Positions 3,809 to 36,503 of a stretch of DNA of 36,794 bases are shown here, piece by piece. Below the pieces are notes generated by a model. It made no database searches and had not been told where the DNA came from. It was given only the letters and a program-made list of their open reading frames with translations. The first letter of the stretch is position 1. Every line of letters begins with the position of its first letter. The stretch covers positions 1 through 36,794 of the forward strand of contig JAFQEM010000003.1 of the NCBI GenBank assembly GCA_017399035.1, written 5' to 3'. The DNA is from Clostridia bacterium. Lineage in GTDB: Bacteria > Bacillota > Clostridia > Christensenellales > Borkfalkiaceae. The position numbers were made by a program, and so were the translations under genes.

Positions 3809-5566
3809 ATGAAAAAAATGTTTAAAAAACTTGCAACGTGCGCACTTGCAACTCTTGTTGGCGTAACTTCGTTGGCGGGGTGTATTAACGTTGGCCCACA
3901 AGGCGAACAGGCTGACAGAGGAAAAACTCAACTTTACGTAAGTCACTATTTAGGTGGTGTTGGCAACGCGTGGTTAACTAAAATTAAAACGGAATTTGAA
4001 AGCCTTTACGAAGACTATAAAGGAGAGAACGGTAAAGTAGGCGTGCAAGTTATGATTAACGACCACAAGCAAGACGGCGAATCACTTGCAGAAGATATCA
4101 AGGGCAGTGAAGATGAAGTTTATTTTACCGATAAATCTAGATATTACGATACTATTTCAACTGGTTCTTTACTTGATATTTCTTCCATAGTAACCAAAAA
4201 GGTTGACGGCGTTTCTTTAGAAGACAGAATGACTGAACAACAAAAGGGTTATTATAAATATAACGATAAATATTACGCGCTTCCACACTACGAATCTTTT
4301 GGCGGATTGACTTATAACAAAAACTTGTGGAATACAAAGTCGCTTTATTTTGCTAAAGGTAAAGTTCCAAGTGAATTTTCTACTTATACGCAAGCAAATA
4401 ACGACAACCCTGCAACGGGAACTGTTTTAGAAGATTACGGATATTTGCCTACTACCTATACTAACGCTGCAGGCGAAAAGTCCGCAGGTCCAGATGGAAA
4501 ATACGGTACTTTTGACGACGGAATGCCTGCAACTTACGAAGAATTTTTTGTGCTTTGTGATTATATGGCCACCAAACAAGTAACGCCGTTCACTTGGACG
4601 GGGCGTTTTGGTAAGGCGTATATGCACTATCTTTTTAATTCGCTTTGGGCAGACGTTGACGGCGCGCAATCAGTTTCCACTTGTTACGGCTTATCTTCAA
4701 ACAGTTTTAAAGTAGTAACCAACGCGGAAGTTAAAAGTGATAGCAATGGATTCGTAAAAGACGAGTTGTCGTTTGAAAACGTAACCATTAACGATTTGAC
4801 CGGCTATAAAACCTATCAAACCGAAGGAATGTATCGCGCATACGAATTCGTTTGCAAAATGGTTTCTGACTCTAGTTATTACAGCACCAAACTTACCGCA
4901 GGTCAATCACACTATCATACGGACGCTCAGCGCGAATACGTTTTGAGTGAATTTGAACCTGAAAAGTGGAACGGAGGCAAGGCTATTGCTATGCTAGTTG
5001 AAGGTAACTATTGGGAAAATGAAACTAGAGACGCTACTATTTTTAACGAACTCCCCGGGGGAAGAACGGCAGAAGATGTTTCTTACGCGCATATGCCTAT
5101 TCCAAAGGTTGACGAAAGCCGTATCGGTACTAAAAACGTTATCGTTGAGGCTCAACAAAATATCTCTTTCATAAAGGGCAATATTGCAGACAATAAAAAA
5201 CAACTTGCGCTTGACTTTTTAGAATACTGCTATTCAGAGGCAAAACTTAAAGAGTTTACGGAAATTACGGGTGTTACCCGTGGTCTTAATTACGACCTTG
5301 ATTCGCTTTCGGGCGTAGGTATGACCGACTATGCAAAGTCTTTGATAGAATATAAAAAGAACGCAGACGTGGTTTATCTCGTTTCTGGAAATCCCGTTTA
5401 CACTAATAATCAAAGTTATTTTACTTATAGATTTTCGCTTAAGGGTTACGATTACGCATTTGATTATATTTACGACGAAAAACCCACGGCGTTGCAAGTA
5501 TTTAACAAACTGAAGGAAAAGAGAAACGAATCTACTTGGAAATCAACGTTAGGATTAAACGGTTAA
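3809..5566 (+). CDS. ABC sugar transporter solute-binding lipoprotein, copy A
   Basis: The extracellular substrate-capture subunit of a CUT1-type carbohydrate ABC importer, family-1 solute-binding fold. A lipoprotein signal peptide ends in SLAGC (lipid-modified Cys25). Recognisable segments are YYALPHYESFGGLTYN in the N-lobe, GPDGKYGTFDDGMPATYEEF near residue 227 (an acidic Gly/Asp loop that may bind Ca2+) and AMLVEGNYWENE near 395. At 585 residues it is longer than MalE-type proteins, which suits a larger oligosaccharide ligand. The ATG is preceded by TAGGAG. It leads two permease genes, with a hairpin between that probably keeps its mRNA in excess. A diverged paralogue with the same landmarks is at 26039. 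The sugar cannot be told from the sequence. Confidence 0.93.
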   Translation: MKKMFKKLATCALATLVGVTSLAGCINVGPQGEQADRGKTQLYVSHYLGGVGNAWLTKIKTEFESLYEDYKGENGKVGVQVMINDHKQDGESLAEDIKGSEDEVYFTDKSRYYDTISTGSLLDISSIVTKKVDGVSLEDRMTEQQKGYYKYNDKYYALPHYESFGGLTYNKNLWNTKSLYFAKGKVPSEFSTYTQANNDNPATGTVLEDYGYLPTTYTNAAGEKSAGPDGKYGTFDDGMPATYEEFFVLCDYMATKQVTPFTWTGRFGKAYMHYLFNSLWADVDGAQSVSTCYGLSSNSFKVVTNAEVKSDSNGFVKDELSFENVTINDLTGYKTYQTEGMYRAYEFVCKMVSDSSYYSTKLTAGQSHYHTDAQREYVLSEFEPEKWNGGKAIAMLVEGNYWENETRDATIFNELPGGRTAEDVSYAHMPIPKVDESRIGTKNVIVEAQQNISFIKGNIADNKKQLALDFLEYCYSEAKLKEFTEITGVTRGLNYDLDSLSGVGMTDYAKSLIEYKKNADVVYLVSGNPVYTNNQSYFTYRFSLKGYDYAFDYIYDEKPTALQVFNKLKEKRNESTWKSTLGLNG

Positions 5567-5570
5567 TTTA

Positions 5571-5601
5571 TTGCCCTACGCCGTTTGCGTAGGGCAATTT
5601 T
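5571..5601 (+). terminator. intra-operon attenuator after the binding-protein gene
   Basis: Perfect 11-bp GC-rich arms (5571-5581 and 5587-5597) around a 5-nt loop, followed by TTTT, five bases after the binding-protein stop codon. This looks like a partial rho-independent terminator, of the kind that gives more binding protein than permease. Locus B has no equivalent: only 3 bases separate the same genes there. Confidence 0.75.
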
Positions 5602-5651
5602 ATCAAAATCTTAATTTTTTGCTAAATTTTATCACTATCAAGGAGATGTTT

Positions 5652-6584
5652 ATGGAAAAACAAAAACCTTTAAGAAGCCTTAATCGTAAACAAAAAGATT
5701 TGTTGTTTTACGTTTTACTTATGGCGTATCCAGTTATTCAATTTTGTATTTTTTACGTCGTGGTAAACTTCAACTCTATTTTGCTTGCTTTTAAGGACTA
5801 TAATTATGGAACCACGGGATTTGAGTCTGCGGGATATCAATGGGTAGGGTTTAAACAATTTGCCAAAATTTTTACTGAACTTAAAGCCAACCCTGCGCTT
5901 TCTGCGTCCATCGGCAATTCGCTTATCGTTTACGCGGTTACCACCATTTCTATGTCGACTTTAACCGTTTGGTTTGCGTTTTACATCTTTAAGAATAAAT
6001 TCGCAAGCAAGTTTTTTAGAATAATTTTATTTTTACCACAGGTAATTTCTCCGCTAGTTATGGCGGTTATGTTTACTAGCGTTGCAGAAAACGTTCTTCC
6101 TGAACTTTTGGGCAAATCAGGTTGGAAAATTCCACCCCTTTTGTCTGACGTAAACACTCGTTTCGGCACGGCTTTATTCTATTCTATTTGGGCAAGTTTC
6201 GGCACGTCTATACTTCTATATAACGGAAATATGGCGTCTATTGACCCAGAGGTTATTGAAGCGGCAACTATTGACGGGGCAGACGGCTTTAAGGAGTTTT
6301 TGTATATTATTTTCCCGTTGGTTTACCCAACGTTTTCAACGTTTTTCGTCGTACATATCGCAGGTATTTTTACCAACCAGATGAGTTTACACACGCTATA
6401 CGGCGAAATGGCAAGCCCAAAAATTCAAACGTTTGGCTATTATTTATTCGTTAGGGTTGCTCAAGGCAATCTTAAAGAATATCCCTTTCTTTCTGCAATG
6501 GGGCTTATGATGACTTTTATTGCAGTTCCGCTTACCCTTTTCGTTAGATGGGGTATGAAAAAAATTGGACCGAGCGTCGATTAA
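5652..6584 (+). CDS. ABC sugar transporter permease 1, copy A (MalF-type)
   Basis: An integral membrane subunit of a CUT1 carbohydrate importer. The 310 residues contain about six hydrophobic segments, beginning FYVLLMAYPVIQFCIFYVVV. The cytoplasmic coupling motif EAATIDGADGFKEFLYIIFP starts near residue 203; this EAA-type loop docks the ATPase. The start is the ATG at 5652, preceded by AAGGAGATG at 5640-5648. A longer in-frame reading from 5571 would begin in the terminator hairpin and is rejected. It is followed by permease 2 with a 16-base gap. Its closest relative in the window is the permease at 27740. No ATPase is encoded nearby, so it probably uses a shared MsmK-like ATPase from elsewhere in the genome. 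Confidence 0.94.
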   Translation: MEKQKPLRSLNRKQKDLLFYVLLMAYPVIQFCIFYVVVNFNSILLAFKDYNYGTTGFESAGYQWVGFKQFAKIFTELKANPALSASIGNSLIVYAVTTISMSTLTVWFAFYIFKNKFASKFFRIILFLPQVISPLVMAVMFTSVAENVLPELLGKSGWKIPPLLSDVNTRFGTALFYSIWASFGTSILLYNGNMASIDPEVIEAATIDGADGFKEFLYIIFPLVYPTFSTFFVVHIAGIFTNQMSLHTLYGEMASPKIQTFGYYLFVRVAQGNLKEYPFLSAMGLMMTFIAVPLTLFVRWGMKKIGPSVD

Positions 6585-6600
6585 GGAGAATAATTTTATT

Positions 6601-7545
6601 ATGAACAACGATTATAAAAATCCCGCTTGCGCTCAATCGCAATCGGAAAATAAAAATAAAATAGTCAAATTTTTATTAGATAACTGGTTCTTTTTCTTGT
6701 TAGGAATCGTGTTGACGCTCTATACGTTTACTATGCTCTTTATCTTTGCTTACGGCGCAATGAACTCGTTTAAGTCCTCTTTGGAATACGGGTGGAACAA
6801 GTCCGCCTTTCCTACGGAAGGCTGGCATTTTGAAAACTACGTTACCGCATTAAGTTCTATTTACGTTAAGGTTAGAGCGGGCGGTGGATTTGAATATCAA
6901 GGCGTTATAAGAATGTATATAAACACTATTCTTTACGCGGTGGGTTGCGCTTTCTTTTCAACCCTCGTTCCGTGTATAACCGCGTATCTTACGGGTAGAT
7001 TTAAATACAAATTTAGCGGAATTATCGTGGGCATCGTTATTATAACTATGTCGCTTCCTATCGTTGGTAGCACGCCGTCGTCTTTACAACTTGCAAGAAT
7101 GCTTGGGTTATACGATAGCATTTGGGGTTTGTGGATAATGAGTGCGCACTTTCAAATGGGTATTCACTATCTAGTTTTCCACGACGCGTTTAGCGGTTTT
7201 CCTGCCGCTTATAAAGAGGCTGCGGAAATTGACGGGGCAAACAATTTGCAAATTATGATTCGTATAATGATTCCCCTAGTTAAAAACATTTTTGCTACCG
7301 TTTTTCTTTTAAGACTTATCGGCTATTGGAACGAATATCAAACGCCTCTTCTTTATATGCCAAATAGTCCGACCATTGCTTATGGATTATATTATTTTAC
7401 ATTCGTAAACACTGACAATAAAACGTTCTCCGTTCCTATGCAACTCACGGGCGCGTTTATCGTTAGTATTCCCATTTTTATCGTATTTTGTATTTTTCAA
7501 AATAGAATTATGACAAATCTTTCTATAGGAGGTGTTAAAGGTTAA
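6601..7545 (+). CDS. ABC sugar transporter permease 2, copy A (MalG-type)
   Basis: The second membrane subunit of the importer, 314 residues with about six membrane segments. The EAA loop reads EAAEIDGANNLQIMIRIMIP, starting near residue 206. The ATG at 6601 follows AAGGAG (6583-6588), which overlaps the end of permease 1; the in-frame TTG at 6565 lies inside the previous gene and is rejected. The polar N-terminal 20 residues (rich in N, K, Q, S) precede the first membrane segment. The C-terminus, IGGVKG, is encoded by AGGAGGTG (7527-7534), which also serves as the ribosome binding site of the next gene. The two genes overlap by one base (TAATG), so production of this permease and the large secreted protein is linked. 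Confidence 0.94.
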   Translation: MNNDYKNPACAQSQSENKNKIVKFLLDNWFFFLLGIVLTLYTFTMLFIFAYGAMNSFKSSLEYGWNKSAFPTEGWHFENYVTALSSIYVKVRAGGGFEYQGVIRMYINTILYAVGCAFFSTLVPCITAYLTGRFKYKFSGIIVGIVIITMSLPIVGSTPSSLQLARMLGLYDSIWGLWIMSAHFQMGIHYLVFHDAFSGFPAAYKEAAEIDGANNLQIMIRIMIPLVKNIFATVFLLRLIGYWNEYQTPLLYMPNSPTIAYGLYYFTFVNTDNKTFSVPMQLTGAFIVSIPIFIVFCIFQNRIMTNLSIGGVKG

Positions 7546-10500
7546 TGAAAAATTTATTAAAAAACAAAACCATCTTAATTGTCTTGTCTTTGATATTTGC
7601 GTTATCGGCGTTCGTTTCTGCGTTCGTCGTGCGCGGTGTGGCTAGAGCGGAATTTTCCGTAGGCAAATTTGAAGATTCTTATTACGTTGGAGACGTGATT
7701 TACGTTCCTGACGCAACTTTCTCGATTGGAGGGCAAGAAGTCCCTGCCGAGTTTGAAATTATTTGTCCTGACGGAGATAAATTTACAAACGACGGTTTAA
7801 CTCTTACTCAATACGGAAACTATACCGTTCGTTATTACGTCAAAAATACCTCTTATTCGCGTTCAGTTTCGTTTAAGGTTGAAAAATTACTTTACGAAAT
7901 TAGCGGAAAGGGTAGCGCGGAATTTGGCTATCATCCGTATCTTGACGAATACGACGAAGGTACTGGAATTACCACTCAACACGGTGGCGTAATAACTTCA
8001 ATAACGCAAGGTTCAAAGTTTGTCCTTAACAAAGTTATAGACCTTTCTAAACTTTCGCCCACTGACCCTATTATAACTTTAAATATTACCCCAACCGAAA
8101 AAGGTTATCTTGATTTTGAAAGAATAAATATGCGTCTTACGGACGTGCACGACCCGTCTAAATTCATTATTATGATTACCAAAGACCAAGAGTGGACTGA
8201 CGGTGATTATCTTTCTTATTCGCTTTGCAATATAAACGATGAAAACGTTTATTATCGCGGTTCTTCAGAATATTCCTCGGGTACGCTTGCGGGGATGGAG
8301 GCGTTGTTTTCCTTCCGTGGAACTCCGGGATATGACCCAGATAACCCCGACGCTTATAAAGAATTTAGAAATTACGCAAACGACACCATAAGTTGGTATA
8401 TTGATTATGCAGAGCAAGATTTGTATATAATCGGTGCAAATAAAGCGCAAAAAAAACTCGTTTGCAATCTTGACGCTACAGGCGCGTGGGATTCTTTCAC
8501 TACGGGTGAAGTTAAACTTGAAATTTACGGAGATACTTACACCAACACTTATGCGAATTTCGTTATTCGTGAAATTGGCGGATGCAATCTTAGTGATAAA
8601 AACCTTGTTGACGAACAAGCGCCTCAAATAACCGTGGATTACGGCGAGTACGATAAGGAAATTCCTAAGGGATTGGTAGATAAGAATTACAAAATTTTTG
8701 ACGCTAGCGCATACGATATCGTTGACGGCTTCGTTGACGTTAAAACGCTAGTTTATAAGAACTATTATACTAATAACAGGATTGCCGTAAACGTTGAAGA
8801 TGGATATTTTAAGCCTACTGAAAAGGGTGTATATACAATTTGTTATACAGCAACGGATAATTTTGACAACGTTGCAGTTGAAGTGGTTGACGTTGAAATT
8901 ACAGACGAGCAAAATCCTATCGTTTTTGAAATAGGCGAGCGCGTTACTGAAGGTAAGCAAAACGTTGCTATTCCGATTGCAGAATATTCAGTTGAAGGTG
9001 GATTTGGTAATAAAAAAGTCGAAATAAACGTAACGTTTGAAGATGAAAACGTAACGGTCAAGGGTGGACAGTTTGTTCCTATGAAAGTAGGAACATACAC
9101 CGTAACTTATTTAGTATCGGACTACGTGGGGCAAGTAGTAACTGAAAACAACTATTACGAGGTAGACGTAGAGTTGAACACGGAGCCGTCGGTTTCAGGT
9201 TCTTTTGAAAACGAGTTTGAGCGTTTCTATATCAAAGGGTTTTCCTACGAAGTTCCCCAAGTTCAAATGTATGTATTTAATCAAGACGGAAAAACTTATA
9301 CTACCCAAACGGCTAACGTAACGGTTGAAAACGGAACTATTACGAACGGCGTTTACGTTCCTTCAACCGAAGGCTTCGTTACCTTTACCTATAAACTTGA
9401 CTCTAGCAAAGGCGAAGGATATAAGGTAACTCGTCCAGTTCACAGTATAAACGATACGAGGGAAGGCTATGAAACACTCCTTGATATGAAAAAGATGTTC
9501 GTTTTAGACGAAGGGGTAACGGCAGGTTACGGCACGGATAAACCGGGATACGCTTATTATCAAGCGTCTAGAGATTCATCTATTAAGTTTGTAAATTCGT
9601 TGTTTGCAGAAAGTTTTTCTATAATGTTATATAACGATAAAGAGATGAGCAACTTAACCGGTATTGACATTACCCTAACTGATAGTCTTAACCCTGAACA
9701 ACAGGTGGTTATCAATCTTATTAAAGCGGGTTCAAAGACGAGTTTGAACGTCAACGGTAAGGGCAAACCTACGGAAATAAATACTCAATTTAAAGGTGAA
9801 CAGTATAGCGTTTCATTAGTAGGTTCTTCGGGCAAACTTACCGTTTCAGGAACTAGCGCGTCTATAAAAGAATACGTTTCCGGTGAAAAATATCAGGGAT
9901 TTTCAAGTAATTTAATTTATTTGGATTTGACGTTTAAGGGAGTTGGCGAAGGTGGATGTCGCGTTTTCGTTAAAGAAGTATGCGCGCATAGTCTTATTAA
10001 AACGGGATATGCAGACTCTGCTGCTCCGTTGATTACGTATCTTGGCAACATTGCAAAGATTGCGGAAAAAGATAGCGTCTACGTTCTACCTGAAGTAGTG
10101 TCGTCAGACGTGGTTTCTCCCGCTCTAAAATCGTTTACGCTTACCGTTAAAAATCCCGACGGAAGTTGCGCAGTTTCTGATAACGTAACACTAAATAACG
10201 TTCCAGTACAAAGATATTCAATAAATTTGGGCGCTTATGGAGAATATATAATAACTTATACTGCAATCGATTATAGTGGAAATTCGGCAACTCGCGATAT
10301 AAGCGTTATGGTTTGCGATTTCGTTGCCCCAACTATTGAACTCACGGGCAATAAGATATTGAGTGCAAAAGTAGGTAATATGGTAAACGTTTGTAAAGCA
10401 ACTTATAAAGATAATTACGGAACTATTAACGAAGATATTGGTTTCTACGTTATGGTTAAAAAGCCTACTGGAAAAATTATAGTATTAGATAGTGGAAAAT

Positions 10501-10622
10501 ATAATTTTATGGCAGACATATCTGGAGAATACGTCGTTTATTATTATGTTTTAGATAGAAGTGAAGACGGTGTTAGCCAAGGCAACGTGGCCATAGAAAG
10601 TTATTCTATCGTAGTGTCTTAA
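7545..10622 (+). CDS. large secreted Ig-like/beta-sandwich protein, copy A (1025 aa)
   Basis: A probable surface or secreted glycan-binding accessory protein; no enzyme motif is visible. A signal peptide of about 35 residues has likely cleavage after VARA. Residues 36-110 look Ig-like (VGDVIYVPDATF...YGNYTVRYYV). Residues 115-345 look like a lectin-type beta-sandwich. Ig-like domains follow near 355-455 (DEQAPQITVDYG...YTATDNFDN), 456-545 and 546-650. A second lectin-like sandwich lies at about 655-820 and two further Ig-like domains at 825-925 and 926-1025, the last opening DFVAPTIELTGN. No anchor motif is seen at the C-terminus. It starts inside the stop codon of permease 2. The 1014-aa protein at 29582 has the same order of domains with clear but limited identity. 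Domain borders are by eye. Confidence 0.85.
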   Translation: MKNLLKNKTILIVLSLIFALSAFVSAFVVRGVARAEFSVGKFEDSYYVGDVIYVPDATFSIGGQEVPAEFEIICPDGDKFTNDGLTLTQYGNYTVRYYVKNTSYSRSVSFKVEKLLYEISGKGSAEFGYHPYLDEYDEGTGITTQHGGVITSITQGSKFVLNKVIDLSKLSPTDPIITLNITPTEKGYLDFERINMRLTDVHDPSKFIIMITKDQEWTDGDYLSYSLCNINDENVYYRGSSEYSSGTLAGMEALFSFRGTPGYDPDNPDAYKEFRNYANDTISWYIDYAEQDLYIIGANKAQKKLVCNLDATGAWDSFTTGEVKLEIYGDTYTNTYANFVIREIGGCNLSDKNLVDEQAPQITVDYGEYDKEIPKGLVDKNYKIFDASAYDIVDGFVDVKTLVYKNYYTNNRIAVNVEDGYFKPTEKGVYTICYTATDNFDNVAVEVVDVEITDEQNPIVFEIGERVTEGKQNVAIPIAEYSVEGGFGNKKVEINVTFEDENVTVKGGQFVPMKVGTYTVTYLVSDYVGQVVTENNYYEVDVELNTEPSVSGSFENEFERFYIKGFSYEVPQVQMYVFNQDGKTYTTQTANVTVENGTITNGVYVPSTEGFVTFTYKLDSSKGEGYKVTRPVHSINDTREGYETLLDMKKMFVLDEGVTAGYGTDKPGYAYYQASRDSSIKFVNSLFAESFSIMLYNDKEMSNLTGIDITLTDSLNPEQQVVINLIKAGSKTSLNVNGKGKPTEINTQFKGEQYSVSLVGSSGKLTVSGTSASIKEYVSGEKYQGFSSNLIYLDLTFKGVGEGGCRVFVKEVCAHSLIKTGYADSAAPLITYLGNIAKIAEKDSVYVLPEVVSSDVVSPALKSFTLTVKNPDGSCAVSDNVTLNNVPVQRYSINLGAYGEYIITYTAIDYSGNSATRDISVMVCDFVAPTIELTGNKILSAKVGNMVNVCKATYKDNYGTINEDIGFYVMVKKPTGKIIVLDSGKYNFMADISGEYVVYYYVLDRSEDGVSQGNVAIESYSIVVS

Positions 10623-10635
10623 TTGGGAGGAGAAT

Positions 10636-12537
10636 ATGAATAAAAAATTTATCAAATTAATTTCGGCAGTACTTGCGCTTACCTGTGTGTTTTCTGCAAC
10701 TGCTTGTGATAGAAACGATAATCAAGGTGGATACGTTGAACCGCCAGTAATCAATGTTCGCCCAGAAGTAACCTTTACTGACGGTGCGTTCGTTGAAAAT
10801 GGGCGCAGTCAATATCAAATAGTACTGCCCACTAATTATCATGCAAAGGAAATGAACGCGGCAAACGAGTTTAATACGCTCTTTTCAATGTCAACTGGTT
10901 TTGAACTTCCAATCATTACAGACGATATGGTTGACTATAACACGACGGATAAATTCATTTCTTTAGGACAAACCGAATATCTCGAAAAGTTTAACGTTAA
11001 ACCTGATTACGCAGAACTTTCCACGCAGGGATACATTGTAAAGAGAATTGACAACTGCGTGGTAATTTCGGGCGCAACTAAAGACGGTTTTGGAACTATT
11101 TACGGCGTGTATGATTTTCTTGCTCGTCAAATCGATTACGAATGTTATGCTGAAGACGAGGTGTACGTTAAAGAAATTACGGACGTAAATCTCGTTGACG
11201 TGAATATTAAAGATAAGCCAGACATTGCAAACGCTTTAAGATGCGGTGGTTGCTATTCGGGAAATATAGACTTTCAAAATCGTCATCGTTTCGTAGGCAA
11301 CGCCGACTTGTTTAAGGGCAATATGACGATGTTCCATAGTTCTTTCCACTTTATGCCACCAGAAAAATATAAAAGCACACACCCTGATTGGTATAGCACG
11401 AACGATAAACAAATTTGTTACACCGCGCGTGGTAATCAAGTAGAATATGAGGCGTTGATTGAAGAATTGTTCCAAGTTTTCCTTAAGGAAATAGAGAAAA
11501 CTCCGGAAATAAATCACATAGGTTTTTCTATGGAAGACGAGGTGGGAGAAATTTGCGGTTGTAAGAAATGTAAAGATTTAAAGAGTTATTTTGGAGATTC
11601 TTACGCTGCCATTATAGTAAACTTTATGAACGATTTGTCAGATAAGTTTGAAAACTATTACGAGCAAATAGGCGTTGAAAAAGAACTCAACTTTATGTTC
11701 TTTTCGTATAAAGAAACTTTTAACCCTCCGTCGAAAAATATAGAAGAAGCAACTTGTAAAGATAACGTATATCCCTTCGTTTGTACTTTTAACGCAAATA
11801 GGGTTGCAAGTTTTGATAGTAAAGAAAACGCTGCTTTACAAAGTGCGCTTGAAGGTTGGTCAAAGGTTTGTAAAAAGATGGCGTTCTGGACGTACTCTGC
11901 AAACTACAACAACTATATTTTCCCGCACGACCCCTTTAACTGCTTGCAAGACAACTTAAAATATTTGAAAAAGTTTAACCCGGTTTATTATAAAAACGAA
12001 GGCGTGGGGGACAACTATAACACCACTGGTTTTATACAACTAAAGTATTATCTTGAATCAAAACTCGCTTGGGATACTGAATTAAATATGGAAGCGCTTA
12101 TAAAGGATTATTTCGTACACTACTTTAAAGACGCGTCTGATATTATGTACGAATTCTTTACTCGTTATCGTCTTGCTCTTGCAAGGATGTATAACGAATA
12201 CGGATGGACTCACTACGATAATTCTAATTTTCCTGCAAAAAATCTTTCTTTTGGCGAATTGCGGGTTTGGCAAGAATATATTAACAGAGCGTACGGGGCA
12301 ATAGAATACTTGAAAGAAACGGATGTAGAAACTTATAATAAACTTTACAAAAGAATCGCTTTAGAAAGTATAACCGTTGATTATACTATTATGTATCTTT
12401 ATAGGGGTAAATTCCTTTCCGAAAAAGAAAAGACTGAAACTCGTGAAAGATTAAAGGCAAATAGCATTTTAACGAATCTCATTTGGGCAGACGACTACGG
12501 AAACAGGTTCGTTGATGTTGTTGACAATTTGAAATAA
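10636..12537 (+). CDS. DUF4838-like lipoprotein, copy A (633 aa), putative glycoside hydrolase
   Basis: A surface lipoprotein; the signal peptide ends in FSATAC (Cys24). Residues 55-190 resemble the small alpha/beta domain that precedes many glycosidase barrels (FISLGQ, GYIVKRIDNCVVISGATKDGFGTIYGVYDFL). The rest resembles DUF4838, a family often linked to glycan loci: HPDWYS at 249-254 followed by QICYTARGN, then SMEDEVGEICGCKKC with Cys307, Cys309 and Cys312. The acidic residues just before the cysteine cluster could be catalytic, and the cysteines could form a disulfide or bind metal; both ideas are inference. The paralogue at 32635 keeps the layout. The ATG follows GGGAGGAG. It is co-transcribed with the importer, consistent with outer-surface processing or binding of the imported glycan. 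Confidence 0.8.
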   Translation: MNKKFIKLISAVLALTCVFSATACDRNDNQGGYVEPPVINVRPEVTFTDGAFVENGRSQYQIVLPTNYHAKEMNAANEFNTLFSMSTGFELPIITDDMVDYNTTDKFISLGQTEYLEKFNVKPDYAELSTQGYIVKRIDNCVVISGATKDGFGTIYGVYDFLARQIDYECYAEDEVYVKEITDVNLVDVNIKDKPDIANALRCGGCYSGNIDFQNRHRFVGNADLFKGNMTMFHSSFHFMPPEKYKSTHPDWYSTNDKQICYTARGNQVEYEALIEELFQVFLKEIEKTPEINHIGFSMEDEVGEICGCKKCKDLKSYFGDSYAAIIVNFMNDLSDKFENYYEQIGVEKELNFMFFSYKETFNPPSKNIEEATCKDNVYPFVCTFNANRVASFDSKENAALQSALEGWSKVCKKMAFWTYSANYNNYIFPHDPFNCLQDNLKYLKKFNPVYYKNEGVGDNYNTTGFIQLKYYLESKLAWDTELNMEALIKDYFVHYFKDASDIMYEFFTRYRLALARMYNEYGWTHYDNSNFPAKNLSFGELRVWQEYINRAYGAIEYLKETDVETYNKLYKRIALESITVDYTIMYLYRGKFLSEKEKTETRERLKANSILTNLIWADDYGNRFVDVVDNLK

Positions 12538-18038: not shown

Positions 18039-18069
18039 AATAAAGATTTAATTTTTTTTGGAGATAAAT

Positions 18070-22305: not shown

Positions 22306-22311
22306 ACTCAA

Positions 22312-23297: not shown

Positions 23298-23388
23298 TAA
23301 AAAACGCAACCGTTTACGTAAATTAAATTCAAAATAGGTATAAATGGCAATTTGTCAAATATATAAAAATTTTATGGAGGAAAATCCT

Positions 23389-26025: not shown

Positions 26026-26038
26026 TAAGGAGAAAAAA

Positions 26039-27739: not shown

Positions 27740-28663
27740 ATGACTAAAAATAGGATATTCAAAAGCAAGCACGACTGGTTTTTTTATATATCATTGATGC
27801 TCTTGCCGTGCATACAATTCTTTATATTTTATATAGTGGTAAATTTCAACTCGATATTGCTTGTATTTCAAAAATTTGAAAACGGAAAATTCGTATTTAA
27901 CGGATTTAACAACTTTGTTGAAGTTTTTACAAAATCTAGCACCATAAACAACATAACCATAAATAGTTTGCTTACTTACGGCAAAAAATCGCTCATTACT
28001 TATGTTTTTCAAATGGTGTTTGGGTTTCCTTTTGCCATTATGTTTTCTTTTTACATAGCCAAAAAATATAAGGGGTCGGGTTTTTTTAAGGTTATAATTT
28101 ACCTTCCGCATATGGTTTCGGCAACTGTTTTTGTGTTGATGTTTAAAATATTTTCAGACGGCGCTATGCTAGACGTTATTGAAATGATAACTGGCGAAAA
28201 ACCCTTTTTAGGTATCACCAAAGGATATCCTTTTGAACTTGCTTTAATTTATACTATATGGTCAAGTTTTGGTGTAAACGTTTTGCTATATACTGGCGCA
28301 ATGAGTCAAATTTCAGATTCTATTATAGAATCTGCGCAACTTGACGGTATAACCCCCTTTAAAGAAATGATTTTGATAACTATTCCGCTTATCTATCCAA
28401 CTATCGTTACCTTTTTGGTGGTTGGGCTTGCAGGCATTTTTACAAATCAAATGAATTTATACACGTTTTACGGCGAGTTTGCAAACGACAAGGCAAAAAC
28501 TCTTGGATACTTTATGTATGCAACTATGAAATCTTCGGTAACCGATTATTCGGATTATCCTTATCTTGCAACACTTGGTATAGTTTTAACGGCTATTACT
28601 ATGGCAATTACTTTTGGCGCAAGGGCAATCTTGAACAGATTAGACCCAATGAGGGAGTATTGA
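27740..28663 (+). CDS. ABC sugar transporter permease 1, copy B (MalF-type)
   Basis: A membrane subunit of the second importer, 307 residues with about six hydrophobic segments. Its first segment (FYISLMLLPCIQFFIFYIVV) is closely similar to that of the permease at 5652. The EAA coupling loop starts near residue 197 and reads ESAQLDGITPFKEMILITIP; Ser in place of the first Ala and Leu before Asp are tolerated variants. The gene starts 3 bases after the binding-protein stop, so it is likely translated by re-initiation, and it is followed by permease 2 after one base. Confidence 0.94.
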   Translation: MTKNRIFKSKHDWFFYISLMLLPCIQFFIFYIVVNFNSILLVFQKFENGKFVFNGFNNFVEVFTKSSTINNITINSLLTYGKKSLITYVFQMVFGFPFAIMFSFYIAKKYKGSGFFKVIIYLPHMVSATVFVLMFKIFSDGAMLDVIEMITGEKPFLGITKGYPFELALIYTIWSSFGVNVLLYTGAMSQISDSIIESAQLDGITPFKEMILITIPLIYPTIVTFLVVGLAGIFTNQMNLYTFYGEFANDKAKTLGYFMYATMKSSVTDYSDYPYLATLGIVLTAITMAITFGARAILNRLDPMREY

Positions 28664-28664: not shown

Positions 28665-29582
28665 ATGAATAAAGTTTTATCTGCCCCCAAAAAGGGTTTG
28701 TTCAAAAATAAAAACACTTCTATTAAAAGGGGAACGTCCCCCTTTATAATAGGGTTACTAGTTGTGTTTATTATCTACACGCTATCAATGGCTATTTTAT
28801 TCGGTTGGGCAGTGTTTGCGTCATTAAAAACTGAAGACGGTTATTTAATTGAATACCTTTGGCCTAATAATGAGTTCTATTTTAACAACTATATAAACGT
28901 ATTTAAACATTTCACGGTTGACGTAAATGGTCAAATAAAAACCGTTGCGGATATGTTTGTAAACACTATTTTATACGCTGGGGTAAACGCGTTTATTCAA
29001 GCGCTTGTGCCTTGTGTGGTAGCCTATTTAGTGGTTAGGTTTCCGTGTAAATTTAGTTCGCTCATATACAATATAGTTTTGATAACTATGATTTTACCCA
29101 TAGTTGGCGCATATCCTGCAGAAATGTCCGTACTTCGTGGTCTAGGTTTATATAATCAAATTTGGGGAACGTGGATTCAAAAATTCAACTTCCAAGGTAT
29201 GTACTTTTTGGTGTTTTACGCGATGGTAAAAAGTATGGGTAAAGAATACTGGGAAGCCGCATATATCGACGGCGCAGACCAGTATACCGTATTGCTAAAA
29301 GTAATTATGCCCTTGCTTAAAAATACAATCGTTTTAGTAGTATTGTTGCAGTTTATCGGATTTTGGAATGACTATCAATCACAACTTCTTTACATTCCGT
29401 CGTATCCAACGCTTGCTTATGGAATTTATTATATAACCAACGTTAAGACCGATAGTGATTTAGTGAATACCCCTATGAAACTTTCTGCAGCAATAGTGTT
29501 TGCTACGCCTATTATCATACTGTTTGTTATTTTTAGAAATAAACTCATGGGCAATCTCACTATGGGAGGGGTTAAAGAATAA
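28665..29582 (+). CDS. ABC sugar transporter permease 2, copy B (MalG-type)
   Basis: The second membrane subunit, 305 residues with about six membrane segments after a Lys-rich N-terminus. The EAA loop reads EAAYIDGADQYTVLLKVIMP, starting near residue 197. GGGAG lies just upstream of the start. As in copy A, the C-terminus (MGGVKE) is encoded by a purine-rich GGGAGGGG stretch that acts as the ribosome binding site for the next gene, and the genes overlap by one base (TAATG). No ATPase gene is present in either locus. Confidence 0.94.
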   Translation: MNKVLSAPKKGLFKNKNTSIKRGTSPFIIGLLVVFIIYTLSMAILFGWAVFASLKTEDGYLIEYLWPNNEFYFNNYINVFKHFTVDVNGQIKTVADMFVNTILYAGVNAFIQALVPCVVAYLVVRFPCKFSSLIYNIVLITMILPIVGAYPAEMSVLRGLGLYNQIWGTWIQKFNFQGMYFLVFYAMVKSMGKEYWEAAYIDGADQYTVLLKVIMPLLKNTIVLVVLLQFIGFWNDYQSQLLYIPSYPTLAYGIYYITNVKTDSDLVNTPMKLSAAIVFATPIIILFVIFRNKLMGNLTMGGVKE

Positions 29583-32500
29583 TGACAAAAAGGTTTACTA
29601 TCACTTGCATAAGTGTTTTATTCGCTATACTAACGCTTTGCGTTTCAGTTGTTGCGTGGGCTTATGCGGGCGATAATTATCAATATTATTTTGATGAAAT
29701 TGAAATTTATAGCGACTATGCCATAGGGGAAACGTTTACCGTTCCACAGTGTAAAATGCATTTGGGCAGTAAAGAGTTTGATACCACTTTTAAGGTTGTT
29801 TTTCCTGACGGTAAAGAGTGTTTAGAGCAAACTTTCACACTTGACCAAAAGGGAAGTTATCAACTAATTTATCAAGGTTTTGACCAAGAGAATAACAATA
29901 CAAGATTAAATTCATTAAATTTTTCGGTAGCCCCTAAACTTTATGAAATGGTTGGCGAAAACGTTTCTTCAAAACCTGAATATAAACTAACAGGATATAA
30001 CGGTACAACGGGTATAGTTGCTAATATTATGAACGGCAACGCCCTTCGTTTTAATAACACTATAAACTTATCTAAACTTACTAAAGAAGAAGGTATTTTA
30101 GAATTTTTCCATATACCCACTAACGTAGGATATTTAGATGGATTTTTTAAGATTACGCTAACTGATGCGTACGACGAAAACAATAGCGTATCTATTTTAG
30201 TTAGAAAGTATAACGAAAACAGTAGCGACGGTTGGTACAACGCTTATATAATGGTATCGTTTAATGGTGGCGACGAAGTCGGTTTGCGTTTTAACAACAA
30301 TAAAAACAATAACGCAAGTTCAATACATTATAACGGGGCGTGGCACCAACTTGATAAAAATAACGAGTTGGGAACTTGTATAAGTTACTCAATGATAGGA
30401 ACGCCAAGAAACAACGTTCCCATAGGCGGTGAAACGCTTAAATTTTCTTATGATTATAATGAGAAAAAAGTTTATGCAAACGGAATTTTTGTAAGTGATT
30501 TAGATGATACGGTGTTTTATTCTAACACTTTTAGCGGGTTTACCACTGGTGAAGTGTTCTTGTCTATTAGCGGATTTAATTACTCTCAAAGCACGGTTAA
30601 TCCCGTTATTTTAAGCGTTGCACAAATGGACATCTCAAATAACGTGTTGTTTGATAACCAACCACCAGTTATAGACGTTGACCTTTCTAGTTTTAACGGT
30701 GATATCGTTGGCGAAAAAGATAAAGCATTTACTTTATTTCCAGCAACTGCGGTTGATAAAATTGACGGTAAGCGTGAAGTGATTGCAAAAGTTTATCGCA
30801 ACTATTATTCATCTAAAATATTTGTACCCGTTATTGACGGAAAGTTTGTTCCCGACCAAAATACAGATTATTTTATAGAATATTCGGCAACCGATTTTTC
30901 GGGAAACAATGCTAAAGAGATTGTAAAAATTAAAATATTAAATAAAAATCAACCGCTGGGCTTTACTGTAAATGGACTTAATTTAAATGGAATAACCGCA
31001 GGAACAAGAACAACTTTGTTTGATGGTGTAAGTGTTTCGGGCGATATATATGGCAATAAAACAAGTGTTAAAGCGGTTGTTAAAAACGTTTCAAACGGTC
31101 AAGAAATTTTACTTGACGATTCTTATTCTTTTATGCCTATTTTGGGTGGAAAACATCAACTTATAGTCAGCGTATCAGATTACGTTGATACGGTTACTCA
31201 AACTGTTGATTTTACAGTTGTTGCACCTGATACCCCTGTATTTATGGGGGAACCTTTTGTTGAAAGATATTATATTAAAGGCGCAACGTATAGGGCAGAT
31301 GATTTTTGTGCTTACACCATAGCAGACGGGTTAGAAAAAGCGCAAACCAAAGTGTATTTGAAAGAAGATGGTGGAAAAGAAAAAGAACTTAACGGTGAGT
31401 TTACCGTAACGGCGAGCGATAATTTACAATTTAAATACGTTACGGAAGGCAATTATTATGAAACTCAAGTTTTAGACGTTGTTGACGTTGGTTTTGGTGG
31501 CGAAGTTGATTTGGCGAGATATTTTCACGGAGACGTTACTTCTCAAACTACTGAAAGTTATATAAAGTATACCGTTAAAAATTTTGAAAATGGAATTTCA
31601 AGTTTTGATTTTATAAATAGCGTGCAAGCGGAAAGTTTAAGTTTATCGCTAGGTTTTGACAAAGTTATCGACCAGTTTGAAACTTTTAACGTTTATATAA
31701 CTGATGCATACGATATATCTAACCAAATAAAATTATCTTTTATAAATTATCAGGGCAAGACTGCTTTACTTATAAACGGAACGAATAGAACCGTGCTGTC
31801 AAAAAATTATTTTGATAGTGAAGTGCTTTATAATTTAAGATATAATAATTCTAATAAAACCATAAACGTTGACGGCGACGCAGTCGTTTACGTTGAAAAC
31901 AACTTGGCAGGTCAAACTTTCGCTGGGTTTACTGGTTACGACGTGTATATTACTTTTGAATTTACAGGCGCAAAAGAAAATGCAAGTGTAAATATTTATG
32001 AACTTAACGGTCAAACTTTTAACAGCAATAATTACATTTTGCCCCCTTCGTTTACGCACACGGTTAGCGTTGGCGAAATTTCTATCGGTCAAACGTTCAA
32101 AATGAGCAAAATTATCGTTGACGACGTTTTAGACCCATTTGTTACCGTTTCGGATTTTTACGTAATGACACCAAGTGGCAATATTGCTTACTCGATAGAT
32201 AATATTAAACTTGATGGAACGGCAGACTATAAGCGTGATTATGAGATTTTGGCAACCGAATACGGTGCGTACACTATCTATATGAACGCATATAATTCAA
32301 GCGGAAACTATTCTTATCTTCCCGTTTACGAAGAAGTTTGGGTGGTTGATATGGTTGCGCCTACGATTGAACTTGGTTCTAGACTATCTAGAGTGATAAG
32401 CGTGGGCAGTGAAGTCAAATTGCCAAAAATTAACGTAAGTGATGATAATACGGCAGTGGAAGATATTAAGGTATACGTTGTGGTTAGGTTTGCAGACGGC

Positions 32501-32626
32501 ACTTTCCGCACGGTTAAAAATCAAAAGTTTACTGCGGACAAGAAAGGTGAATATACGATTATGTTCGTTGCATACGACCAAAACCAAAATATGGCGGTAA
32601 ACACGGTTGTCGTTAAAGCGGAATAG
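29582..32626 (+). CDS. large secreted Ig-like/beta-sandwich protein, copy B (1014 aa)
   Basis: The counterpart of the 1025-aa protein at 7545, in the same operon position and with the same domain order. The signal peptide has likely cleavage after AWAYA (residue 28). Next come an N-terminal Ig-like domain (IGETFTVPQC), a lectin-like sandwich (about 110-345; VGYLDGFFKITLTDAYDE), an Ig-like domain from 360 (QPPVIDVDL...YSATDFSGNNA), two more Ig-like domains, a second sandwich from about 655, and two terminal Ig-like domains (the last opening VAPTIELGSR near 926). ERYYIKGATY matches ERFYIKGFSY of copy A. Identity to copy A is clear but modest. No anchor or catalytic motif is seen. It is translated from an overlap with permease 2, so it is probably made in proportion to the importer and may act next to it at the surface. 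Confidence 0.85.
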   Translation: MTKRFTITCISVLFAILTLCVSVVAWAYAGDNYQYYFDEIEIYSDYAIGETFTVPQCKMHLGSKEFDTTFKVVFPDGKECLEQTFTLDQKGSYQLIYQGFDQENNNTRLNSLNFSVAPKLYEMVGENVSSKPEYKLTGYNGTTGIVANIMNGNALRFNNTINLSKLTKEEGILEFFHIPTNVGYLDGFFKITLTDAYDENNSVSILVRKYNENSSDGWYNAYIMVSFNGGDEVGLRFNNNKNNNASSIHYNGAWHQLDKNNELGTCISYSMIGTPRNNVPIGGETLKFSYDYNEKKVYANGIFVSDLDDTVFYSNTFSGFTTGEVFLSISGFNYSQSTVNPVILSVAQMDISNNVLFDNQPPVIDVDLSSFNGDIVGEKDKAFTLFPATAVDKIDGKREVIAKVYRNYYSSKIFVPVIDGKFVPDQNTDYFIEYSATDFSGNNAKEIVKIKILNKNQPLGFTVNGLNLNGITAGTRTTLFDGVSVSGDIYGNKTSVKAVVKNVSNGQEILLDDSYSFMPILGGKHQLIVSVSDYVDTVTQTVDFTVVAPDTPVFMGEPFVERYYIKGATYRADDFCAYTIADGLEKAQTKVYLKEDGGKEKELNGEFTVTASDNLQFKYVTEGNYYETQVLDVVDVGFGGEVDLARYFHGDVTSQTTESYIKYTVKNFENGISSFDFINSVQAESLSLSLGFDKVIDQFETFNVYITDAYDISNQIKLSFINYQGKTALLINGTNRTVLSKNYFDSEVLYNLRYNNSNKTINVDGDAVVYVENNLAGQTFAGFTGYDVYITFEFTGAKENASVNIYELNGQTFNSNNYILPPSFTHTVSVGEISIGQTFKMSKIIVDDVLDPFVTVSDFYVMTPSGNIAYSIDNIKLDGTADYKRDYEILATEYGAYTIYMNAYNSSGNYSYLPVYEEVWVVDMVAPTIELGSRLSRVISVGSEVKLPKINVSDDNTAVEDIKVYVVVRFADGTFRTVKNQKFTADKKGEYTIMFVAYDQNQNMAVNTVVVKAE

Positions 32627-32634
32627 GTGAAATT

Positions 32635-34608
32635 ATGAAAAAATTTATAATTTTCTTTATGGTGATGGTGCTTTGCTGTGGTGCAGTTATAGGCGGTTGT
32701 AGCAATACCAAAAACGCACAAGTACAAGTGGATAAAAACCATCAATTCATTATTAAAGAAACTGATGAATATATCGTTAAAAACGGTGCAAATACTGGTT
32801 ATCAAATTATACTGCCTGCTAACGCTTGTGAAAGATTAGAACTTGCAAGTCAAGAACTTATTACCTTTTTCAAAGAAGCAACAGGCATTACTCTTTCAGT
32901 GGGCATAGATAACGGGCAGTTGTCCACCCAAGGAAAATATATTTCTATCGGTGAAACACCGTTGTTTAATTCTGCGGGTATAACGCTTGATAAAGTTGCA
33001 CTCGGTACAGATGGTGTTAGGGTTATAACAAAAGATAACACGATATTTTTAGTTGGCGGTGGTGATGACGGCGCGTTGTTTGCCGTATACACTTTACTTG
33101 AAGATTTGTTTAATTACGACTGGTTTTATCAAGATTGTTACAGTTTAGATAGAAACGTAACCCAAGTAAAACTAAAAGATTATAACATTACGGATATCCC
33201 CGATATGGCAGTTCGTATTCCAAATCTAGGTTATCTTAAAAACAATATGATTTTGGGCAAGAGAATGAAATTTTCCGATTCGTTTTTGTCTGGTAGAATT
33301 TACGTAACAAATCCTGATAAAACTGAAAGAGGAAACAACACTCACTCAAGTTACGTTTATATTCCACCAGAATATTATAACGATTTAGAAAATAATCCTG
33401 AACATTATCACCCAGAGTGGTTTGCATCAAACGGCATCAATCAACTTTGTTATATGGCAGGCGTTAAAGAAGGGGAAAGGGTTGAGGGCGACTCTTATTC
33501 TCAAATGGTAGATGCAGTTTTTGAAGTTGTAAAATTCAATCTTAAAAAAGACACCGTAAACAAGATTATGATGCTTGGTATTCAAGATTTTGAAATGGGT
33601 TGGTGTTCTTGCTCTGCGTGCAGTGAAGTTAAAGAAAAATACGGCGTAAATTCTGCGAGCGTTGTTATGTTGTTAAACAACGTAAATAAAAAAGTTAAGG
33701 CGTGGTTTGAAACCGAAGATGGCAAAGAATATAAGCGTGATTTTAAACTTGCATTGCTTGCATATTACGGTCTAGTTAGCGCGCCTGCAGTTGATGGAAA
33801 GGTTAAACTTAAAGCAGACCCAGAAATTGCCGTTTGTTATGCGCCTATCGAGGCGGATTTTACAAGACCTTTTTCCGCCCCTGAAAACGTGGTTTATTAC
33901 AACAATATATTAAAATGGAGCGAAGTTTGCGACAATCTTATGTTTTGGGTATATTCAACCATATACACCGACTTTTTAATTCCGCTTAATATTTTCAATT
34001 CACATCAAGAAAATTATCAGTTGTTTAAAAAACTTAACACTATTTGGGTGTTTAATGAAAGTCAAGGCGGGCAAGCAGGGGGCGGAACTGGTTGGATGGT
34101 TTTAAAATGCTATTTAGACGCAAAACTTGCTTGGAACGTCAATTACGATTATAACGAACTTATAAAGAAATTCTTTGCAAATTATTTTGGCGTTGCTAAC
34201 GAAGAGATGACTAAAATTTTCAATTCCGTTATGACGCACTGGATGGTTCAAGAAGAAAACGGAATGAAGTCAATGCAATCTGCTTATTCATCAACCACTT
34301 ATAAACAAGAAAAATGGTGGCCCAAGTCTGTTCTTATGGGGTGGCTAGATATGTATGACGACGCGCTGATTAAAATTGAACATTTGAAATATTCTGATAA
34401 AAAAGAATATAACGCTCTATATAAACGTATAGCGATGGAAAGGTTGACCGTTTATTATATGTTGGTTTCTTTCTATGACGGAACGTCTACACCTGAACAG
34501 GTAAGTTTTTGGAAAAACACCTTTAAGTATGACGTTGGCATTGCAGAACTTAATCAAATAAGCGAATCTGCTTACGTTTATCAGTTGTTAGATTCGTGGG
34601 GTGTATAA
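32635..34608 (+). CDS. DUF4838-like lipoprotein, copy B (657 aa), putative glycoside hydrolase
   Basis: A surface lipoprotein with a signal peptide ending VIGGC (Cys22). The N-terminal small domain (GYQIILPANACERLELASQE, YISIGETPLF, FLVGGGDDGALFAVYTLLED) precedes a DUF4838-like region with HPEWFA (259-264), then LCYMAG, and QDFEMGWCSCSAC with Cys324, Cys326 and Cys329. These positions match HPDWYS and CGCKKC of the copy at 10636. The acidic residues before the cysteines differ in detail (IQDFEMG against SMEDEVG), so any catalytic assignment is uncertain. The end resembles the paralogue (YNALYKRIAMERLTV against YNKLYKRIALESITV). AGGTGA precedes the ATG, and the stop overlaps the next gene (TAATG). 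Confidence 0.8.
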   Translation: MKKFIIFFMVMVLCCGAVIGGCSNTKNAQVQVDKNHQFIIKETDEYIVKNGANTGYQIILPANACERLELASQELITFFKEATGITLSVGIDNGQLSTQGKYISIGETPLFNSAGITLDKVALGTDGVRVITKDNTIFLVGGGDDGALFAVYTLLEDLFNYDWFYQDCYSLDRNVTQVKLKDYNITDIPDMAVRIPNLGYLKNNMILGKRMKFSDSFLSGRIYVTNPDKTERGNNTHSSYVYIPPEYYNDLENNPEHYHPEWFASNGINQLCYMAGVKEGERVEGDSYSQMVDAVFEVVKFNLKKDTVNKIMMLGIQDFEMGWCSCSACSEVKEKYGVNSASVVMLLNNVNKKVKAWFETEDGKEYKRDFKLALLAYYGLVSAPAVDGKVKLKADPEIAVCYAPIEADFTRPFSAPENVVYYNNILKWSEVCDNLMFWVYSTIYTDFLIPLNIFNSHQENYQLFKKLNTIWVFNESQGGQAGGGTGWMVLKCYLDAKLAWNVNYDYNELIKKFFANYFGVANEEMTKIFNSVMTHWMVQEENGMKSMQSAYSSTTYKQEKWWPKSVLMGWLDMYDDALIKIEHLKYSDKKEYNALYKRIAMERLTVYYMLVSFYDGTSTPEQVSFWKNTFKYDVGIAELNQISESAYVYQLLDSWGV

Positions 34609-36503
34609 TGAAGAAAAGAATTATTTTTATATTAAGTCTTTGCTTTGTTTTAAGTTGTGTTTTATTTAAAGCGTGCCAAAAAGACAATAAAATAAATTAT
34701 AAAATTGAATTAAACTATTACGAATATCAGTTGCAAGTTAATTATTCATTTAAACTTGAATATTCGGGTTGTCCATACGCGCAGTTTTCATCCTCAAACG
34801 ACCAAATTGCAACGGTTGACCAATCGGGTATCGTTATAGGTAAATCTGCTGGCAAAGTGGAAATTAGGGTTCAATGTGAAAACCAAAGTAAAACTTGCAC
34901 GGTTACCGTTGTGAGCGTTGAACAGTTTACTCAAGTTTTATCGCTTAACGTTGATGAAAATGTAAACGTATTAAAAGGCGACAACACATTACGGATTTTG
35001 CCTAAACTTTTAATTGACGGTAAAGAAACTCAAACGGAATTTTTATTTAGTTCTCAAAAAGAAAACGTTGCAACTATTGATAAAAACGGTTTAATTACGC
35101 CGATTGAATATGGCATAACCGCAATTACTGTTAGCGCAAACTATAAGGGTAGCACTCTTTCTAAAACGGTTATATTAAACGTTATTGCAGACGTAGATAT
35201 TCGTTTTGACAATTATTCTTACACTCTCTATACAACAAGTGTAAATTACAAGCAAAACACTTCGTTTAGTCCTTTATTTTTGGGCGTTTACGTTGACGGT
35301 GTAAAGGATGAAGATGCAACGGTTAGTTACGAGTATGACCAAAATTTGTTAAAGTTTGAAAACGGAAAAGTTTCGGTTATTACTAGCGATAGTGCAAAAA
35401 CGCAGTTTACTGCAGTTTACCAAGACGAAAACGGTATAAAATACACGTGTCCTATATCGGTAGAAATTTTATTCCCCGTGATAGATAAAACAAATCAAAC
35501 AAATTATTACGTTGGGAACTGGAAAGACAGTTTGCGTGGGGATAAGAAAATAGGTAGAGAACAAATTACTTTTACTGAAAAAGTATTTGAAGAAGAAATA
35601 GTTGATATTTACGATATTACTACTGGTCAAGAAAAAGATTTGAATTATAATCCACAAACTTGTGAACTAGAAAATACTGAACTGGTTAAAGGCTCAAAAA
35701 CTTGGAAGATATATAATGACAAGTATGCAGTAACCGTTAGCGTAACCGTAGTAGATATGGTTATAAACACGGCGGAAGAATTTGTTAAAACGTTGTCTAT
35801 TGCAACCGACGAGCATATAGTTATAGGTAAAGATATAGATAACATTGGGCAGTATCAAAACACTTCAAATATTTTTACAGGTATTTTAGATGGTAATTAT
35901 CATACGGTAAGCGGTATAGATTTTAGTAAGGCAACTGCCTACGGTGGGTTATTTTATAGAATAGATAATGCAACTATAAAAAATATAGCGTTCGACAAAG
36001 TTGACCTTTCGGTTTATAGACATACGGAAGATGAACAAACGGTTGCTTACCCGCACGGTTTGATAGGTTATCAAGGGTATCGCTCGACAATAAGCAACGT
36101 ATTTGCTCAAATTTATTCTACTGCGTCAGAGTATGAAGGTGGTTTGTTTCACTGGATAGGCGCAGGCATAATTATTAAAGATACCGTTATGGTTTATCAA
36201 AATAAATGGGCTGGTAGTGAAGTTGGTGTTTTATCACGAACAAGCGATGCAGTTGTAACTATTGACAACGTTTATATAATAAAAAACTCAAATATTGCGT
36301 TAATCAAATCTTTTGCGCAAAGTTTATCTGCTGAAAACAAGTTGCAACTTGAAGAAAATTTACAAAAAGCAAACGTGGATTTTGAAGACGTTGAGCAATT
36401 CTATCTATATAGAAACACGCTTAATTTGACTAAATTTCATATGGCGGTGCTTGAGAAAAACGGTAACGGCGACAATTACGAAAACGACGATTTTACGGAT
36501 TAA
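34608..36503 (+). CDS. Big2-domain surface protein with GLUG-type beta-helix (631 aa)
   Basis: The counterpart, by position and N-terminal domains, of the 1396-aa protein of locus A. The N-terminus is hydrophobic with cysteines at 17 and 23; VLSC17 or LFKAC23 could be a lipobox, neither ideal. Big2-type domains follow at about 30-105 (FSSSNDQIATVDQSGI), 108-200 (SQKENVATIDKNGLI) and 200-295. From about 385 the sequence becomes a right-handed beta-helix with GLUG-like turns: IFTGILDGNYHTVSGIDF, GGLFYRIDNATIKNIAF and GLIGYQGY. The stalk and C-terminal DTFxAxETI modules of locus A are absent. I choose the ATG at 34608, which overlaps the preceding stop and follows GGGGTG, over a GTG four codons upstream. 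Probably a glycan-binding surface protein; an enzymatic beta-helix cannot be excluded. Confidence 0.8.
   Translation: MKKRIIFILSLCFVLSCVLFKACQKDNKINYKIELNYYEYQLQVNYSFKLEYSGCPYAQFSSSNDQIATVDQSGIVIGKSAGKVEIRVQCENQSKTCTVTVVSVEQFTQVLSLNVDENVNVLKGDNTLRILPKLLIDGKETQTEFLFSSQKENVATIDKNGLITPIEYGITAITVSANYKGSTLSKTVILNVIADVDIRFDNYSYTLYTTSVNYKQNTSFSPLFLGVYVDGVKDEDATVSYEYDQNLLKFENGKVSVITSDSAKTQFTAVYQDENGIKYTCPISVEILFPVIDKTNQTNYYVGNWKDSLRGDKKIGREQITFTEKVFEEEIVDIYDITTGQEKDLNYNPQTCELENTELVKGSKTWKIYNDKYAVTVSVTVVDMVINTAEEFVKTLSIATDEHIVIGKDIDNIGQYQNTSNIFTGILDGNYHTVSGIDFSKATAYGGLFYRIDNATIKNIAFDKVDLSVYRHTEDEQTVAYPHGLIGYQGYRSTISNVFAQIYSTASEYEGGLFHWIGAGIIIKDTVMVYQNKWAGSEVGVLSRTSDAVVTIDNVYIIKNSNIALIKSFAQSLSAENKLQLEENLQKANVDFEDVEQFYLYRNTLNLTKFHMAVLEKNGNGDNYENDDFTD

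Follow-up and report, generated by a model that had tools for sequence, protein, structure and literature searches.

The window analysed here, a whole contig (C26; 36,794 bases) from a 1.53-Mb, 69% complete assembly of a Clostridia bacterium, carries two copies (A and B) of a six-gene cassette that combines a CUT1-type importer with three families of surface proteins. We consider this cassette probably to be the core of a family of Gram-positive polysaccharide utilisation loci (gpPULs), multiplied and diversified in substrate within one bacterium. In both copies, a solute-binding protein (SBP) lipoprotein is followed by two permeases (PermB and PermC), a secreted protein of about 1020 residues (the giant), a DUF4838 lipoprotein and a Big_2 lipoprotein, all on the plus strand:

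3809..5566, plus strand: SBP of cassette A, a CUT1-type lipoprotein with a lipobox; no Pfam family
5571..6584, plus strand: permease B of cassette A; PF00528, 1e-13; translation probably begins at a Met some 26 residues further in
6565..7545, plus strand: permease C of cassette A; PF00528, 5.9e-12
7545..10622, plus strand: giant surface protein of cassette A, 1025 residues; signal peptide, Ig-like domains and two predicted L-type-lectin-like sandwiches
10636..12537, plus strand: DUF4838 lipoprotein of cassette A; predicted GH115-like fold
12548..16738, plus strand: Big_2 lipoprotein of cassette A, 1396 residues; PF02368, 2.8e-15
25982..27736, plus strand: SBP lipoprotein of cassette B; PF13416, 1.1e-06; the start may be an internal ATG at 26039
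27740..28663, plus strand: permease B of cassette B; PF00528, 1.2e-08
28665..29582, plus strand: permease C of cassette B; PF00528, 2.4e-08
29582..32626, plus strand: giant surface protein of cassette B, 1014 residues; no Pfam family
32635..34608, plus strand: DUF4838 lipoprotein of cassette B; PF16126, 1.7e-30
34596..36503, plus strand: Big_2 lipoprotein of cassette B, 635 residues; PF02368, 2.7e-10

The places and order of the two cassettes, which an earlier note on this DNA had given, were confirmed by the open reading frames (ORFs), by a Pfam scan of 20 ORFs in the window and by BLASTP. Neighbouring listed ORFs within both cassettes are separated by gaps of at most 13 bases or overlap by at most 20 bases. 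Because they also share the same strand, each cassette is probably a single operon. The paralogues are only modestly identical, as the note had said, at 26–42% between the copies (BLASTP). Identity was 27.7% for the SBPs, 36.5% for PermB, 41.7% for PermC and 28.8% for the DUF4838 proteins. The two giants were 27.2% identical across nearly their full length (E 4e-65), and the Big_2 proteins were 26% identical over a match confined to the N-terminal ~312 residues.

The cassette had been thought to occur twice, which is an undercount for the genome. In 19 further genome stretches read together with the window, the order PermB, PermC, giant and DUF4838 was found at ten loci, located on contigs C26 (two loci), C2, C10, C3, C27, C20 (two loci, C20a and C20b), C21 and C28; half a giant is present on C30. 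An SBP lies directly in front at nine of the ten loci (the exception is C28), and a protein with a Big_2 profile or Pfam match lies behind at nine (the exception is C20a). Three of the giants deviate from the simple pattern. The C28 giant is split across two reading frames, both of which match the profile. The match to the C21 giant spans only its C-terminal two thirds, and an unassigned frame of 509 residues sits between this giant and PermC. The C20a giant was matched solely by a ten-member profile that included the C20a giant itself. In total, 16 full-length PermC-type permeases were found in the genome, of which 11 belong to the ten giant loci and the C30 locus. Five lie outside the giant loci (C4, C5, C9, C28:77 and C30:85); two of these (C4 and C28:77) are so close to a contig end that hardly any sequence, or none, follows them. 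DUF4838 matches numbered 17, two of them within one reading frame. BspA-type leucine-rich-repeat proteins directly follow the C20b cassette (G000:C20:61718-65936, L029).

Regular linkage of the giant to CUT1 permeases, as opposed to a scattered occurrence, had been proposed as the test of the cassette, and it was found in related genomes. We used 40 giant-seeded loci, selected from a longer list with the strongest first plus some weak ones, and 17 of the 18 matches in the same order outside the own genome (G144:C6 was left out). A giant was counted if it scored above 150 bits and had at least 1.5 kb downstream or at least 1.2 kb upstream; giant-like proteins with lower scores were excluded, including those of L106 and L107, which do not adjoin PermC, and that of L143, which lies before PermB-PermC. 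DUF4838 came next at 46 of the 47 testable loci (30/31 in the same genus, 16/16 in the same order). PermC stood in front at 38 of 44 (26/30 and 12/14, respectively).

A scan of named genomes with an alignment of two giants found no relative, and a scan of named genomes with the cassette SBPs found 73 loci. These seeds were the cassette SBPs, so that the loci are not a random set of CUT1 importers. By title, most loci come from Clostridia, Clostridiales, Oscillospiraceae or Firmicutes that are uncultured or metagenome-assembled; one is named Candidatus Gallimonas faecavium and two are titled Bacilli, and the isolate names include deer, sheep, goat, buffalo, chicken and others. Among the 53 SBP loci with at least 7.5 kb downstream, a giant was present in 47, always with DUF4838 next. 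The order was complete in 43 of these; in three the giant came directly after the SBP, and in one all members but a detected Big_2 were present. No giant was detected in the other six. The remaining 20 loci were set aside because they were too short; 7 of them show a giant, and 13, with 0–6 kb to inspect, do not. They include L167, where 6 kb contain two SBPs and no permease or giant. In two metagenome-assembled genomes titled Bacilli (L221, L229) the order was SBP, giant, DUF4838 and Big_2, followed about 1.8 kb further on by a PermB that is truncated where the fetched stretch stops. This order suggests a rearrangement or a transfer between classes.

At a threshold of 1e-20, 13 of the 297 genomes scanned in the order, the own genome included, contained the giant; they are spread over four families, one of them through a partial match. 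One-per-family genomes of the order gave weak partial matches in 2 of 16. In a phylum sample of 398 genomes, two genomes besides the own one had short matches to the C-terminal Ig part of the giant. The order and phylum scans took at most two candidates per genome at strict thresholds, and absence from them is soft.

We compared the distances between cassettes for five of the proteins, using 82 of 89 cassettes after removal of those with an identical PermC stretch. The five distance matrices were correlated (rho 0.53–0.77; permutation maximum 0.23). The correlation persisted when only the own genome, with its nine paralogous cassettes, was considered (rho 0.57–0.81), with at most 7 of 500 permutations as high. 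Since the distances correlate even among the paralogues of one genome, the cassette seems to have duplicated, diverged and been inherited as a unit. With every one of the five proteins, 14 or more other cassettes of the 82 were closer to a window copy than its window partner, and copy A was nearest to cassettes of genome G002 (same genus), its near twin L159 and the C2 copy of the own genome. A and B are thus not sisters, and a recent tandem duplication of the window copies was rejected. The duplication is old, as the note had guessed as one possibility, in that the window copies are not each other's nearest relatives.

Each cassette encodes an SBP and two PF00528 permeases, and a MalK-type ATPase with an OB domain is encoded elsewhere in the genome, as in a CUT1 importer. 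The SBP of cassette A gave a weak match to NgcE, far below the cut-off of that model. Most cassette SBPs have a conserved loop of the form GPDGxxGTxDDGLP, which we take to resemble a calcium-binding loop. A search of PDB sequences with single proteins gave nothing at E 1. Only one MalK-type ATPase with an OB domain was found in the genome, with the assembly at 69% completeness. The simplest reading is therefore a shared ATPase, like MsmX in Bacillus subtilis, with the incomplete assembly as a caveat, and we infer that it serves the permeases of all cassette copies.

The two DUF4838 lipoproteins of the window scored 131.3 and 106.7 bits against PF16126 (curated cut-off 26.6). In the AlphaFold model the fold resembles that of GH115, and two acids of the barrel are conserved. 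Profile searches gave a weak GH67 match; the GH67 N-terminal domain matched the cassette B protein at E 0.00096, below the cut-off of that model. Identity to the GH115 alpha-glucuronidase (PMC9063842) and to GH67 was about 12%. In 45 sequences, D301 was the only invariant barrel acid, D196 was present in 42, and position 300 was E in 24 and Q in 11. Four cysteines are near-invariant (residues 261, 307, 309 and 312 of the protein at 10636-12537), three of them just after D301, and possibly form a metal site or disulfides. The sole invariant acid, the variable position 300 and the cysteines in the same region would fit a non-catalytic, GH115-derived glycan-binding lipoprotein, with a cassette that captures without cutting. 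We regard this as rather unlikely, as D196 is kept in 42 of the 45 sequences and the general base of GH115 is itself unsettled, with Asp303 as the likely acid and Asp177 as a candidate base (PMC9063842), so that two distant acids are compatible with catalysis. DUF4838 is mentioned in one paper of the full-text literature searched (PMC9870897), and the cassette gives it a testable role as a GH115-like surface protein. Genome G090 of the same order has 13 DUF4838 matches, with runs on contigs C5 and C39, while no giant match was listed for this genome; this is another expansion of the domain.

The giant had been described as Ig-like. Its AlphaFold model does contain a chain of Ig domains, and it also holds two concanavalin-like sandwiches of the L-type lectin kind, predicted in cassette A at about residues 114-347 and 646-815. 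Profile searches gave weak matches only, among them SraP, CopC and collagenase modules. Foldseek with the whole giant returned mostly Ig-type chains and was not used for naming the lectin-like domains. The structural matches of the giant include the adhesin lectin domains of SraP, Aap and YwfG. Together with the Ig repeats, with the lack of a detected anchor in most giants when one was looked for, and with tandem giant-DUF4838-Big_2 triplets that have no cassette-type transporter nearby (see below), these matches could point to an adhesin system. Giant, DUF4838 and Big_2 would then chiefly bind plant particles or mucus, and the importer would take up what is released nearby without physical coupling. 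This too appears unlikely to us. From one paralogue to the next, the giant and DUF4838 show distances that follow those of the SBP and the permeases, the importer adjoins in most testable cases, and a pure adhesin would have no need of ten diverged copies with an importer each. Quite improbable is that these are ordinary gpPULs with incidental neighbours, their order preserved just through common recent ancestry: gpPULs that include ABC importers and regulators have been described (PMC5320581), related genomes have a common history and the sample of CUT1 loci is not unbiased, but the order is preserved between own-genome paralogues that are only 26–42% identical (the window pair) and across families of the order, and 11 of the 16 PermC-type permeases sit in loci with a giant or half giant.

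The following genes flank the two cassettes:

2..982, plus strand: GH29 alpha-L-fucosidase, cut by the contig start; PF01120, 1.4e-45
1277..3724, plus strand: secreted protein of 815 residues upstream of cassette A (ORF; no Pfam family)
16789..17628, minus strand: AraC-family regulator; PF12833, 6e-20, with AraC_binding
18058..20943, plus strand: GH106-like alpha-L-rhamnosidase; PF17132, 6.6e-13
21472..22341, minus strand: AraC-family regulator; PF12833, 8e-21
23344..25878, plus strand: secreted protein of 844 residues upstream of cassette B (ORF; no Pfam family), with a domain in common with the protein at 1277-3724

An endonuclease/exonuclease/phosphatase-family protein is also encoded between or around the cassettes. 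The proteins at 1277-3724 and 23344-25878, each just upstream of an SBP, share 33% identity over 182 residues (BLASTP), and a secreted protein in this position is a possible seventh cassette member. The protein adjoining the C2 cassette (L020:3630-6227) also matches the protein at 1277-3724, over the N-terminal ~200 residues. A direct repeat of 300 bases, 95% identical, occurs at 3305-3604 and 16319-16618. It encodes part of a C-terminal module of about 141 residues, 91% identical, in the 815-residue protein and the Big_2 protein of cassette A. Its presence at the two ends of cassette A suggests that the module was copied recently or spread by gene conversion. The repeat was rejected as a trace of recent cassette duplication, as it is a C-terminal module common to two proteins flanking cassette A.

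Glycosidases also lie beside other copies: GH106 at C10, Bac_rhamnosid6H (which we take to be GH78-type) at C2 and C21, and GH39, GH2 and GH4 at C2.

Together, the CUT1 importer, the glycosidase-like lipoprotein, the lectin-like giant, the glycosidase neighbours and the AraC-family regulators are best explained by a system that captures plant-type glycans at the surface, trims them and imports them. The analysis shows gene order, linkage, inheritance of the genes as one block, signal peptides, lipobox patterns, predicted folds and, in an incomplete genome, one MalK-type ATPase. Glycan binding, catalysis, the substrate and a physical association of the accessory proteins with the importer are what we infer; the predicted lectin-like and GH115-like folds make glycan capture likelier. 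In the proposed mechanism, a glycan would be bound at the surface of the cell by the Big_2 lipoprotein and by the secreted giant, whose lectin-like sandwiches sit on Ig-domain spacers. The side groups of the glycan would be recognised and probably trimmed by the DUF4838 lipoprotein, which would be either a glycosidase resembling GH115 and GH67 or a binding protein descended from such an enzyme. The SBP would hand the oligosaccharide to the two permeases, powered by the single ATPase common to all copies. Likely substrates would be pectin-type plant glycans bearing rhamnose, fucose and uronate.

Several results qualify this proposal. The giant is patchy among relatives (16 of 24 in the same genus, one weak). 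DUF4838 is wider than the cassette, present in 23 of 151 genomes of the order. In genome G211, two giant-DUF4838-Big_2 triplets lie in tandem, and the ~70 kb read around the triplets contain neither an SBP nor a permease of the cassette type. Hence, giant and DUF4838 form the tightest pair, usually but not always linked to an importer. Moreover, no glycosidase was found among the scanned neighbours of C3, C20a, C20b, C27, C28 and C30, so that the proposed substrates can apply to no more than some of the copies. The patchy giant and the copies without glycosidase neighbours slightly lower our confidence in this proposal. A bolder version, which we regard as less likely than not, is a Gram-positive counterpart of the Sus utilisome. 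Giant, DUF4838 and Big_2 would join a dedicated CUT1 importer in one machine for capture, trimming and import, with about ten such machines per genome and one shared ATPase, and would form the main uptake route for complex plant glycans in an uncultured lineage of animal-gut Clostridia and some Bacilli.

Sus-type polysaccharide utilisation loci of Bacteroidetes have a repeated, substrate-diversified core that pairs surface lipoproteins with an importer. The cassette is also a repeated core of surface lipoproteins and an importer, but its importer is an ABC transporter of the cytoplasmic membrane and not TonB-dependent, and the Pfam scan of the 20 window ORFs detected no SusC or SusD homologue. 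The earlier note had suggested a possibly undescribed Sus analogue. The general idea of a Gram-positive polysaccharide locus has already been named gpPUL (PMC5320581). For the fixed core with three surface families, no description appeared among the titles and abstract openings returned by full-text literature searches, in which subscription journals are mostly outside coverage; the passages of a paper on fish-gut metagenome-assembled genomes (PMC11333855) contain nothing on the cassette. As far as this literature shows, the fixed, repeated core with giant, DUF4838 and Big_2 families is new. The gpPUL paper (PMC5320581) found that Gram-positive glycan-uptake loci have no core comparable to SusC/SusD that would identify them. 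The cassette supplies a recognisable core for a lineage known here almost only from metagenome assemblies. Where giant and DUF4838 stand as a pair, the locus can be interpreted as probably serving glycan uptake, and the copies can be compared for substrate.

The Bacillus subtilis importers YtcQP-YteP and YesOPQ with the multitask ATPase MsmX (PMC5730181, accessible part) likewise have an SBP and two permeases, an ATPase common to several importers and pectin-type substrates; in contrast to the cassette, no lectin-like giant, DUF4838 or Big_2 protein is named in them in that part of the source. The window contains all three elements of a gpPUL (PMC5320581): enzymes (GH29 and GH106-like, by Pfam), a transporter (SBP and two permeases) and two AraC-family regulators. 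The gpPULs of Roseburia and Eubacterium rectale (same source) similarly have an enzyme, mostly an ABC transporter and a regulator, AraC and LacI among them, per locus, with many loci per genome. However, gpPULs are defined by their content, whereas the loci described here have a fixed six-gene core with three surface families in about ten copies.

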